Shown here in pieces: positions 2,942 to 38,420 of a stretch of DNA of 64,000 nucleotides. Both the position numbers and the translations under genes were made by a program. This DNA is from Streptomyces sp. JB150 (GTDB taxonomy: Bacteria > Actinomycetota > Actinomycetes > Streptomycetales > Streptomycetaceae). Under the pieces are notes generated by a model. That model worked only from the letters and a program-made list of their open reading frames with translations, searched no databases and was not told the DNA's origin. Location of the stretch: assembly GCF_011193355.1 (NCBI RefSeq), contig NZ_CP049780.1, positions 1,533,582-1,597,581 on the forward strand, read 5' to 3'. Numbering within the stretch: position 1 is the stretch's first letter; every line of letters begins with the position of its first letter.

Positions 2942-3991
2942 CTACAGGTCGACTTCCTTCATCAGCATCCCGACCTCCGTGTTCGACAGCCGCCGCAGCC
3001 AGCCCGACTTCTGGTCGCCGAGGGTGATCGGGCCGAAGGCGGTGCGCACCAGCTTCTCGACCGGGAAGCCGGCTTCGGCGAGCATGCGGCGCACGATGTG
3101 CTTGCGGCCCTCGTGCAGGGTCACCTCGACGAGGTAGTTCTTGCCGGTCTGCTCGACGACCCGGAAGTGGTCCGCGCGGGCGTAGCCGTCCTCCAGCTGG
3201 ATGCCGTCCTTCAGCCGCTTGCCGAGGTCCCGCGGGATGGGCCCGGTGATCGCGGCCAGGTAGGTCTTCTTCACGCCGTACCGGGGGTGCGTCAGCCGGT
3301 GGGCCAGCTCGCCGTGGTTGGTGAGCAGGATGACGCCCTCGGTCTCGGTGTCCAGGCGCCCCACGTGGAACAGCCGGGTCTCCCGGTTGGTGACGTAGTC
3401 GCCGAGGCACTGGCGCCCCTCCGGGTCCTCCATGGTGGAGACGACGCCGGCCGGCTTGTTCAGCGAGAAGAACTGGTACGACTGCGTGGCCACGGTCAGG
3501 CCGTCCACCCGGATCTCGTCCTTCTCCGGGTCGACCCGCTTGCCCTGCTCCAGGACGATCTCGCCGTTCACCTCGACGCGGGCCTGCTCGATCAGCTCCT
3601 CGCAGGCGCGGCGCGAGCCGTAGCCCGCGCGGGCGAGAACCTTCTGCAGCCGCTCGCCCTCCTGCTCGGCGCCGGGGAAGGTCTTGGGCAGCTTGACGTC
3701 CTTCCTGCCCGCGTACCGCTCCCGGTTGCGCTCCTCGATCCGGGCCTCGTACTCCCGCGAGCGCGCCGGGGCCGTACGGCCGCGCTGGGGCTTCTTGGCG
3801 CCCTGCGGGCCGCCCTTGGCCGCGCCGCCGCGCCCGGCCTTCGGGCCGTCCTTCGTCGCGCCCGGGCCCACGTCGTAGCGGCGCTCCTCGGGGCGGGGCT
3901 TGCGGGGGCGGCCCTGCCCCTGCTTCTGGTCCCTGTCGTTGCCGGCTCCGCGGTAGTTACCGCGCCCGCCGCTCTTGCCGCTGCTTCGCAT
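2942..3991 (-). CDS. rluB: 23S rRNA pseudouridine synthase, RluB type
   Basis: Isomerises a uridine of 23S rRNA (position 2605 in E. coli numbering) to pseudouridine. The protein is 349 residues. Residues 1-110 are a basic, glycine/arginine/lysine-rich and probably disordered extension. An S4 RNA-binding domain starts near RLQKVLARAGYGSRRAC (about 114), and the catalytic aspartate is in GRLDTETEG (Asp214). The ATG at 3991 overlaps the scpB TGA by one base (TGATG); a TTG one codon earlier is the alternative. It ends the parA-scpA-scpB cluster, an order conserved in actinobacteria. Confidence 0.93.
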   Translation of the reverse strand: MRSSGKSGGRGNYRGAGNDRDQKQGQGRPRKPRPEERRYDVGPGATKDGPKAGRGGAAKGGPQGAKKPQRGRTAPARSREYEARIEERNRERYAGRKDVKLPKTFPGAEQEGERLQKVLARAGYGSRRACEELIEQARVEVNGEIVLEQGKRVDPEKDEIRVDGLTVATQSYQFFSLNKPAGVVSTMEDPEGRQCLGDYVTNRETRLFHVGRLDTETEGVILLTNHGELAHRLTHPRYGVKKTYLAAITGPIPRDLGKRLKDGIQLEDGYARADHFRVVEQTGKNYLVEVTLHEGRKHIVRRMLAEAGFPVEKLVRTAFGPITLGDQKSGWLRRLSNTEVGMLMKEVDL

Positions 3992-35229: not shown

Positions 35230-36918
35230 TCAGTCGTCCCGACCGCCGCCGTCGCCGCCCTCGCCCGGCTCGGCGGCCGCCGCGTCCTCGTCCAGCGCGT
35301 CGACGAACTCCACCCCGTCCAGCTCGGCGAGCCGGTCGGACGCGTCCGTGCTGCCGTCCCGGTCGGCCTCGACGGCCTTCGCGAACCACTCCCGCGCCTC
35401 ACGCTCCCGCCCGGCCGCCAGCAGCGCGTCGGCGTAGGCGTACCGCAGCCGCGCGGTCCACGGCTGTACGGCGTTGGAGGCCAGCTCGGGGCTCTGCAGC
35501 GTCACGATGGCCGCGTCCAGCTGCCCCATGTCACGCCGGGCACCCGCCGCGACGAGCCGCATCTCGACCTGGCCGGCCCGGTCCAGCTTCTGCACCTCGG
35601 GCGCACCCGCCATGTCCAGCGCCTTCTCCGGCCGTCCGAGACCCCGCTCGCAGTCGGCCATCAGCGGCCACAGCTCCACGGTCCCGGTCATCCGCCGCGC
35701 CGCCCGGAACTCGGCCAGCGCCTCGCTGTACTTCTGGTTGGCGTACGCCGCGAATCCGGCCGCCTCGCGCACCGCCGCGACCCGCGACGCCAGCCGCAGC
35801 GCCACCTTGGAGTACCCGTACGCCGCCTCCGGGTCCTCGTCGATGAGCCGCGCGACCATCACGAGGTTCTTGGCGACATCCTCGGCGAGCGTCTTCGGCA
35901 GGCTCTGCAGCTCCTGCCGTACGTCCTTGTCGATCTCGTCGCCGGTGACGTCCTCGGGGATCGGCAGCCGCTTGATCGGCTCGCGGTCGCGGTCCCGGTC
36001 CCGCTCGTCACGGAACCGCCCACCACCACGCCGGTCGTCGCCACCGCGGCCACGGAAGCCGCCGCCCGGACGAGCGCCCCGGTCGTCGCGACGCGGCCCA
36101 CGGCCACCCCGGTCGTCCCGGCCACGGAACCCACCGCGCTCACCGCGGCTGTCCTCACGCCGGAACCCACCACGCTCACCGTCCCGCCGGTCGTCCCGCC
36201 GGTCGTCGCGCCGGTCATCCCTGCGGTCGTCACGGCGGAAGGCCGGACGGTCCCCCCGGTCGTCGCGCCGGAACCCACGATCGCGATCGTCACCACGCCG
36301 CTCGTCACGCCGGTCATCGCGCCGGCCGTAGCCCCCACCGCGGTGGTCATCGCGCCGGAACCCACCACGATCACCACGGTCGTCACCCCGACGCCCATAG
36401 CCACCGCCACGGTTGTCGTCCCGACGGTCGTCACGGCGGTCATCGCGACGGTCGTCACGGCGGTCGTCACGCCGAAAGGCCGGACGGTCGTCACGGCGGA
36501 AAGCCGGCCGGTCACCCCGGTCGTCACGCCGGAACCCACGATCGCGGTCCCGATCGTCTCGACGCGGCCCACGGTCCCGGTCCCGGTCGTCGCGCTGGTA
36601 CGGGGACGACCGGAACCCACGGTCACGGTCATCACCGCGCCGCTCGTCACGCCGGTCATCGCGCCGGCCGTAGCCTCCACCGCGGTGGTCATCGCGCCGG
36701 AACCCACCACGGTCCCCGCCACGCTCGCCACGGTCACCCCGGTCGCCTCGGTCGTCCCGGCGGTAACCGCCACGGTCGCCGTCGCGACGGCCGTAGCCGC
36801 CACGGTCACGGTCGTTACGATCGCCGCCGCGACGGAAGCCGCCGCGGTCGCCGCGATCTCCACCATCCCGTCGCCGCTGGTCGCGCTCCGGTCGATCGTC
36901 GGGAGAGTTGGTGGACAT
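35230..36918 (-). CDS. Tetratricopeptide-like protein with long Arg/Asp/Gly repeat region
   Basis: A 562-residue protein. Residues about 15-330 are almost only Arg, Asp and Gly with Phe/Tyr at intervals ([23 protein letters not shown] units), a composition like RNA-binding, phase-separating RGG proteins. From about 335 it becomes a regular alpha-helical TPR-like domain ([20 protein letters not shown], then [20 protein letters not shown]), with an acidic tail. The ATG at 36918 has AGGAG upstream. Exact 71-base DNA repeats occur inside the gene. It lies just downstream of the 5S rRNA terminator in the same direction. Function unknown; a role in RNA or ribosome handling is speculation. Confidence 0.85.
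36298..36710. repeat. 71-bp direct repeat pair inside the RDG-TPR gene
   Basis: Copies at 36298-36368 and 36640-36710 are 342 bases apart, an exact multiple of 3, and differ at one base. They encode the same block (about residues 70-93 and 184-207). Many shorter imperfect repeats surround them. Confidence 0.8.
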
Positions 36919-36962
36919 CGGTGACTCCTGTCTTCGGTACCGCAAGCATTCTAAAAAACGAA

Positions 36963-37004
36963 AGGACCCCTGGTCCCAGCTGAACGCTGGTGACCAGGGG
37001 TCCT
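36963..37004 (-). terminator. rRNA operon terminator
   Basis: A long near-perfect stem (36963-36980 with 36986-37004), followed on the minus strand by CTTTCGTTTTTT. It directly follows the 5S gene and separates it from the RDG-TPR gene. Confidence 0.9.
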
Positions 37005-37014
37005 CCAAAGATTG

Positions 37015-37132
37015 TTCGGCGGCGTCCTACTCTCCCACAGGGTCCCCCCTGCAGTACCATCGGCGCTGTGAGGCTTAGCTTCCGGGTTCGGAATGTAACC
37101 GGGCGTTTCCCTCACGCTATGACCACCGAAAC
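37015..37132 (-). rRNA. rrf: 5S ribosomal RNA
   Basis: Complete 5S rRNA. Read on the minus strand it begins GTTTCGGTGGTCATAGCG, contains ATTCCGAACCCGGAAGCTAA, and ends GAGTAGGACGCCGCCGAA. Ends are good to about 3 bases. It is followed by a strong terminator and preceded by a normal 23S-5S spacer, but the 23S and 16S genes that should lie upstream are almost entirely missing. Confidence 0.97.
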
Positions 37133-37232
37133 CCTAATGGTTTCGAGCGAACAAGCACACTTTTCTGTTATGCGTTCTGCTCAAAGCCGGCAACGGTCGT
37201 TGCCTCAGAACTAACACAGTGGACGCGAGCAA

Positions 37233-37290
37233 CTGAGGACAAGCCCTCGGCCTATTAGTACCGGTCAACTCCACACGTTACCGTGCTTCG
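37233..37290 (-). pseudogene. 23S rRNA 3'-terminal remnant (about 58 nt)
   Basis: On the minus strand this reads from AAGCACGGTAACGTGTGG through GACCGGTACTAATAGGCCG to CTTGTCCTCA, the last few dozen bases of a Streptomyces 23S rRNA. The rest of the 23S gene is absent. The base before it belongs to the 16S leader. The truncation point is about 37290. Confidence 0.85.
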
Positions 37291-37620
37291 GAACAGTCAG
37301 GCGGAATAGGCCCGACCGTTCACAGCGTCCTCGCTGTGTTTTTTCAAAGGAACCTCGTCCCAGCTGGCGCTGGAGACGGGGTATCAACATATCTGGCGTT
37401 GACTTTTGGCACGCTGTTGAGTTCTCAAGGAACGGACGCTTTCTTTGTACTCACCCTCTCGGGCTTTCCTCCGGGCGCTTCCCTTCGGTCTTGCGTTTCC
37501 GACTCTATCAGATCCTTTTCTCGATCCGATTCCCGGCCGGCGGGATCGTCTTGGGCGTCCGGGCTTTGCCCGGCGGCCTTTCGACATTCACTACGTTAGC
37601 CGATTCCCTCGCCGACTCAT
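37291..37620 (-). promoter_or_regulatory. rRNA operon promoter region and 16S leader
   Basis: Minus-strand sequence typical of Streptomyces rRNA promoters and leader. There is a -10-like TAACGTAG (37591-37598) and another in TGATAGAGT (37502-37510). The leader element TTGAGAACTCAACAGCGTG is at 37410-37428, the hairpin CACAGCG-AGGA-CGCTGTG at 37321-37338, and a processing-type stem at 37292-37320. In intact operons this leads into the 16S gene; here it runs straight into the 23S stub. Confidence 0.85.
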
Positions 37621-37778
37621 AATCGAGTCCGCGGTTCTGAATTCGGACATGCGGACACGTCGAATCCGTCCCCGCTGAGGGGATCTTCTGAGGTAGTGGG
37701 TTGGCCGCTTCCGGCTGCTGTCGATGGCAGTACCCGTTCCAGCGGCTCGGGCCACATTACGTACCTCCGCGAGGAGAG

Positions 37779-38420
37779 TCAAGTGCGGCGGCGGCGTGGG
37801 ACATGGGCCCGGTAGGGGCTCACCGTCGGGTCGTCGGCGACCCAGTAGCGCCAGGGGTGGACCGCGCCCTCTCCGGAGACTCCGGTGCGCGGGCCGTTGC
37901 GCACCTGGTCGGAGGGGACGGGGGTGCCGGCCAGGATGCGGAGCGGGGTCTCGCCGGAGGCGCAGGCGTCCACGCCGTCCTGGGCGCGGTCCACGTCGAG
38001 GGCGGTGGCCAGGCGGGCCGGGCCTTTGGCCAGTTCCTTGTCGTTGCGGGCCGAGAGGCGGCGGGTGCGGGCCAGCTCGGCGCCCTCGATGATCTCGCCC
38101 GCGCGGAGCAGGACGGCACTGGCCCGGCCCTCGGGGCCGCACACCAGGTTCATGCAGTGCCACATGCCGTAGGTGAAGTAGACGTACACATGGCCGGGCG
38201 GGCCGAACATCACGGCGTTGCGGGGGGTGCGGCCGCGGTAGGCGTGGGAACCCGGGTCGTTCTGGCCGTCGTAGGCCTCGACCTCGGTCAGGCGGAGGGC
38301 GATCGGACCGTCCGGGGTGGTGCGTACGAGGATGCGGCCGAGGAGATCGGGGGCCACGTCGAGGACGGGCCGGTCGAAGAAGTCCCGGGGCAGGGGCGTA
38401 CGGTCGGGGGTCGCGATCAT
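37779..38420 (-). CDS. 3-methyladenine DNA glycosylase (AAG/MPG family)
   Basis: Removes alkylated purines from DNA to start base excision repair. The protein is 213 residues. Conserved family segments are [39 protein letters not shown] (with the catalytic Glu) and [16 protein letters not shown]. The start is the ATG at 38420; a longer frame upstream overlaps the divergent promoter. It lies upstream of the rRNA promoter region on the same strand. Confidence 0.93.

Follow-up and report, generated by a model that had tools for sequence, protein, structure and literature searches.

Can a Streptomyces strain carry a ribosomal RNA operon that has been reduced to its promoter, its leader and a 5S gene? 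The stretch of DNA analysed here (the window: 64,000 nucleotides, positions 1,533,582-1,597,581 of the genome's only contig, which has 7,318,937 bases) reads as though it did. On the minus strand, a DNA-3-methyladenine glycosylase gene (38588-37779; NF002003, 259.5 bits against a cut-off of 182) is followed by an rRNA promoter/leader region (37640-37290), a short piece of 23S rRNA, a spacer, a 5S rRNA gene (37130-37014; RF00001, model positions 1-120, 106.7 bits), a terminator-like hairpin (36977-36963) and a gene for an Arg/Asp/Gly-repeat protein (36918-35230). The two protein genes were used as synteny anchors upstream and downstream, respectively, the latter on the grounds that its DNA is conserved 3' of the 5S gene in relatives. 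The hairpin comes from a consensus scan and is weak evidence, with 3 terminators found in the region against 1.4 expected. Across the whole 64 kb, the 5S gene was the sole match to reach the Rfam gathering threshold, and no complete rRNA operon was found in the window. The product of the downstream gene, which the original prediction called an RDG-TPR gene, contains a long Arg/Asp/Gly-rich repeat region; it has no NCBIfam match, and its DNA adjoins the operon across relatives.

The original prediction offered two interpretations of this arrangement: either a real internal deletion that left a dedicated 5S transcription unit under rRNA promoters, or a short-read assembler that bridged a multi-copy operon. 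The arrangement itself was read correctly. The leader does run without N characters into the 3' end of the 23S gene and on through the spacer and 5S, the join lying between positions 37290 and 37289 (one shared base allows the leader to end at either); the whole window, the join included, is free of N. Thus, the letters divide into a left-hand piece that ends with the leader and a right-hand piece that carries the 5S gene. The 23S stub is present, with a length of 56 nt (37289-37234) and not about 58 as first given, and matches positions 3066-3121 of the 23S in the relatives' locus L095 at 100% identity. The leader had been named from recall, and its identity proved right: it aligns over 342-356 nt, with 86-92% identity, to the stretch 5' of the 16S gene in seven relatives' loci (L021, L024, L050, L055, L095, L071 and L083). 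It is this similarity to relatives' upstream regions that suggests a "complete promoter"; the sigma-70 consensus scan of 36900-37780, itself uninformative, returned no site.

If the two pieces were contig ends that had been joined, three traces would be expected: (i) a fixed k-mer length common to both sides of the join, (ii) breakage of the other repeat copies in the same assembly and (iii) a full repeat at the same place in well-assembled relatives. A genuine 5S unit, in turn, should be kept in relatives or in a soundly assembled genome.

The join sits between two 77-nt blocks that are shared with other rRNA loci of this genome. The left block (37366-37290, minus strand) matches the rRNA locus at 4.27 Mb exactly, from G000:C1:4272694. 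The bases preceding it differ (CAGCGC in the window versus CAGCAT at 4.27 Mb), marking a locus-specific base; at its other end the maximal match extends to 78 nt, because base 37289 of the next piece agrees by chance. The right block (37289-37213, minus strand) is identical at 77 of 77 positions (L003) to the loci at 1.09 and 4.27 Mb. Past it, the 4.27 Mb copy differs from the window, and at 1.09 Mb the copy gives way to N.

The same length recurs throughout the assembly. Among 30 exact maximal matches of at least 40 nt between the six rRNA loci, which are pairwise and hence not independent events, 14 measured 77 nt and 3 measured 78, and none was longer. Blocks of 77 nt flank the joins without N at 3.04 and 3.54 Mb on both sides each, as well as both sides of a 100-N gap at 5.60 Mb; they are also found on the right side of the 4.27 Mb join and at the 23S end and the 5S start at 1.09 Mb. 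No other assembled copy extends to the left edge at 4.27 Mb, which therefore falls outside this comparison. The single exception is the leader at 1.09 Mb, which has 54 nt in common with the 1.57 Mb locus (that of the window) and 53 nt with the 4.27 Mb locus before it enters a run of 2600 N.

Two well-assembled relatives that served as controls, with six operons each, yielded no match of 77 nt (0 of 110 in G009 and 0 of 305 in G027), and their longest matches were 3,472 and 1,529 nt, respectively. Within the interval of 70-85 nt, for which match counts are given for both controls, G009 had 6 matches at 75 nt and 4 at 78, and G027 had 2 at 71, 4 at 75, 2 at 80 and 2 at 82. Because the left match in the window is itself 78 nt and four matches of that length occur in G009, a single match of a given length is not telling by itself, and the argument rests on the recurrence at most edges. 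These recurring edges are the signature of de Bruijn contig ends with k of about 77.

The other rRNA copies of the assembly are broken as well. A search of the genome with the region returned ten matches at six rRNA places, all of which were read, and none of the six is intact. At 1.57 Mb and at 4.27 Mb (G000:C1:4272300-4273100, L013), the leader passes into a 23S stub and then 5S through the same kind of join; the 23S start is identical at the two places, and the leader ends 23 nt further on at 4.27 Mb. The leader enters the middle of a 5S gene directly at 3.54 Mb and the last part of one at 3.04 Mb, and at 5.60 Mb it is followed by 100 N and part of a 5S. The locus at 1.09 Mb (G000:C1:1092800-1101200, L012) consists of a leader, 2600 N, a 23S with 100-N gaps and duplicated pieces, and part of a 5S. 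One 77-nt block of this 23S appears twice head to tail at a spacing of 77, which indicates that contigs were placed end to end with their overlap untrimmed. Another 77-nt block appears three times, and the repeated blocks each adjoin a 100-N run.

Model searches of the whole genome gave no match to 16S (RF00177; 26 of 154 candidates scored), one match to 23S (RF02541; 12 of 63 candidates scored), and two 5S matches above the cut-off with one below it. The only 23S found, that at 1.09 Mb, is a patchwork and unsuitable as a reference. The 2600-N run at that locus may be an assembly gap or a masked stretch, and a 16S masked there would escape the 16S search; the matching interval spans 2,637-2,731 nt in 12 relatives' loci. 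A living bacterium requires intact rRNA genes, and no intact rRNA locus was found in this genome; therefore, the assembly is at fault. The 16S gene and most of the 23S, which had been described as absent, are so in the assembly and not in the organism.

Comparison with related strains at the same locus had been proposed as a check, and it revealed full operons. The comparison covered 21 loci that share the flank: 14 were fetched from the same genus and chosen for long contigs from 60 relatives, and 7 were named loci that continue for more than 1 kb past the glycosylase match, taken from the best 80 of 396 confirmed relatives. Full 16S, 23S and 5S genes were found in 12 of the 21 (L133, L134, L135, L136, L138, L139, L141, L143, L021, L050, L095 and L071). 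Eight others are broken by a contig end or N: L024 and L055 have N gaps within the rRNA, L142 has the 16S start and then N, L083 reaches a contig end within 23S, and L137, L144, L145 and L146 reach one within the leader. The last, L140, has a leader and no rRNA, and is taken up below.

The two 77-nt blocks are separated by about 4,890-4,981 nt in the 12 full loci; for these figures, the end of any partially aligned block was extrapolated. The order and orientation of the flanks (glycosylase, leader, 5S, repeat gene) are those of the window in 11 of the 12, the L071 contig stopping at 5S. Assemblies break after the glycosylase gene: among the best 80 of the 396 relatives, 73 named records end within 1 kb, 232-911 nt past the glycosylase match. 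The highest protein identity among these best 80 belongs to Streptomyces glaucescens NRRL B-2706 (L076; 94% in the best segment), and its record ends within the leader.

We also searched the genus for the passage from leader to stub, using a pattern of the leader hairpin, 26-56 bases and the 23S stub; it was exact, so that divergent leaders would be missed. Only 1 of 392 same-genus genomes contained the pattern, namely the present one, at 1.57 and 4.27 Mb. Among the 80 named loci, 13 contain the hairpin of the pattern (most contigs in this set stop short of it), as do 8 of the 14 fetched loci. Since the hairpin was present in 15 of the 17 loci whose sequence continues well beyond this point (7 named and 10 fetched), the search is fairly sensitive at this locus, except for divergent leaders. 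Together with the 21 syntenic loci, none of which has the leader-stub-5S arrangement, the search gave no instance of a 5S unit kept in relatives or in a soundly assembled genome. A conserved mini-operon elsewhere in the genus was rejected on the same grounds, the exact pattern being confined to this genome among the 392.

The locus L140 might appear to be a counter-example, as its leader has no rRNA behind it. It comes from G012, a single-contig genome with eight long leader matches, L140 included. Seven of these leaders (L140 and L149-L154) enter differing stretches at nearly the same leader base, and no 16S match lies behind them within the sequence examined; only the eighth, L155, has 16S behind its leader. 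One 23S was reported for G012, with 12 of 65 candidates scored. The stretches in L150, L151 and L152 resemble a degenerate form of what we take to be transposase-adapter sequence. Because seven of the eight leaders lack 16S and adapter-like remnants follow some of them, we consider G012, too, to be an assembly whose rRNA contigs were misjoined, and L140 was set aside.

How much room do these results leave for a real event? Deletion of the 16S and nearly all of the 23S, with a dedicated 5S unit left behind under rRNA promoters, would agree with a join that bears no N and with flanking genes that are syntenic with those of relatives, but the breakpoint would then have to fall between two 77-nt shared blocks, and so would the joins at 3.04 and 3.54 Mb. 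The similar structure at 4.27 Mb, which could be taken as a second instance of the same loss, has the identical 23S breakpoint, and damage would be needed at all six operons found, in a genome in which no intact 16S was seen. Full operons at 12 of 21 relatives' loci and leader-stub-5S at none of them also tell against it. We therefore regard such a deletion as very improbable, and it is scarcely credible that the strain truly lost the inside of this operon (perhaps also that of the 4.27 Mb one) and kept a 5S-only unit; that part of the original prediction is unsupported.

More improbable still is a locus that was partly damaged in reality, for example by recombination between operons, and then misassembled in addition. 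Multi-copy operons can recombine, and the missing inside is invisible in this assembly; however, the order and orientation of the flanks match 11 of the 12 full relatives' loci, and nothing demands more than the joining of contigs. Thus, the 77-nt edges, the damage at all six rRNA loci found and the full operons in relatives lead us to conclude, with a probability of roughly 0.985, that the mini rRNA operon is an assembly artefact and that an ordinary 16S-23S-5S operon stands here, with its inner ~4.9 kb missing from the assembly. The interpretation in which a short-read assembler bridged the multi-copy operon is strongly supported by the same three lines of evidence. Set against the Streptomyces operon that lies between the glycosylase and Arg/Asp/Gly-repeat genes, the window matches relatives in leader, 23S end, spacer, 5S and flanks, and differs from the 12 full loci in the inner 4,890-4,981 nt or so that this assembly lacks.

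A contig built from unique sequence in a de Bruijn graph continues for k bases after entering a repeat and then stops, and SPAdes commonly finishes at k = 77. We infer that an assembler of this type, its last k being close to 77, was unable to traverse the multi-copy operon, and that its unique contigs stopped 77 nt inside the shared sequence. They would afterwards have been ordered and butted against each other, with no N at this join and with 100 N elsewhere. PMC11528492 describes a SPAdes run with k values of 21, 33, 55 and 77. The riboSeed study (PMC6009695) treats rDNA as difficult for short-read assembly, and its authors suspect collapsed rDNA repeats even in several reference genomes. 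The present locus is like the cases described in that study in that multi-copy rRNA operons are impassable to short reads. It differs from them in that contig ends butted without N imitate a clean deletion, which the 77-nt edges betray.

The outcome is the removal of a false positive, and no new biology is gained. The analysis also provides a practical test: when an apparently clean deletion within a multi-copy repeat is flanked on either side by exact shared blocks of one fixed length (77 nt here), joined contigs are indicated. Such joins can be concealed in single-contig genomes without any N, and G012 was a second case encountered by chance; a gene loss at an rRNA locus that is taken from such a genome is therefore untrustworthy without reads.

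A minor observation concerns the 5S gene itself. It carries a locus-specific variant at position 37070 of the window, GCCTC-ACAGC, where GCCTT-ACAGC is found in the pieces from 1.09, 3.54, 4.27 and 5.60 Mb.
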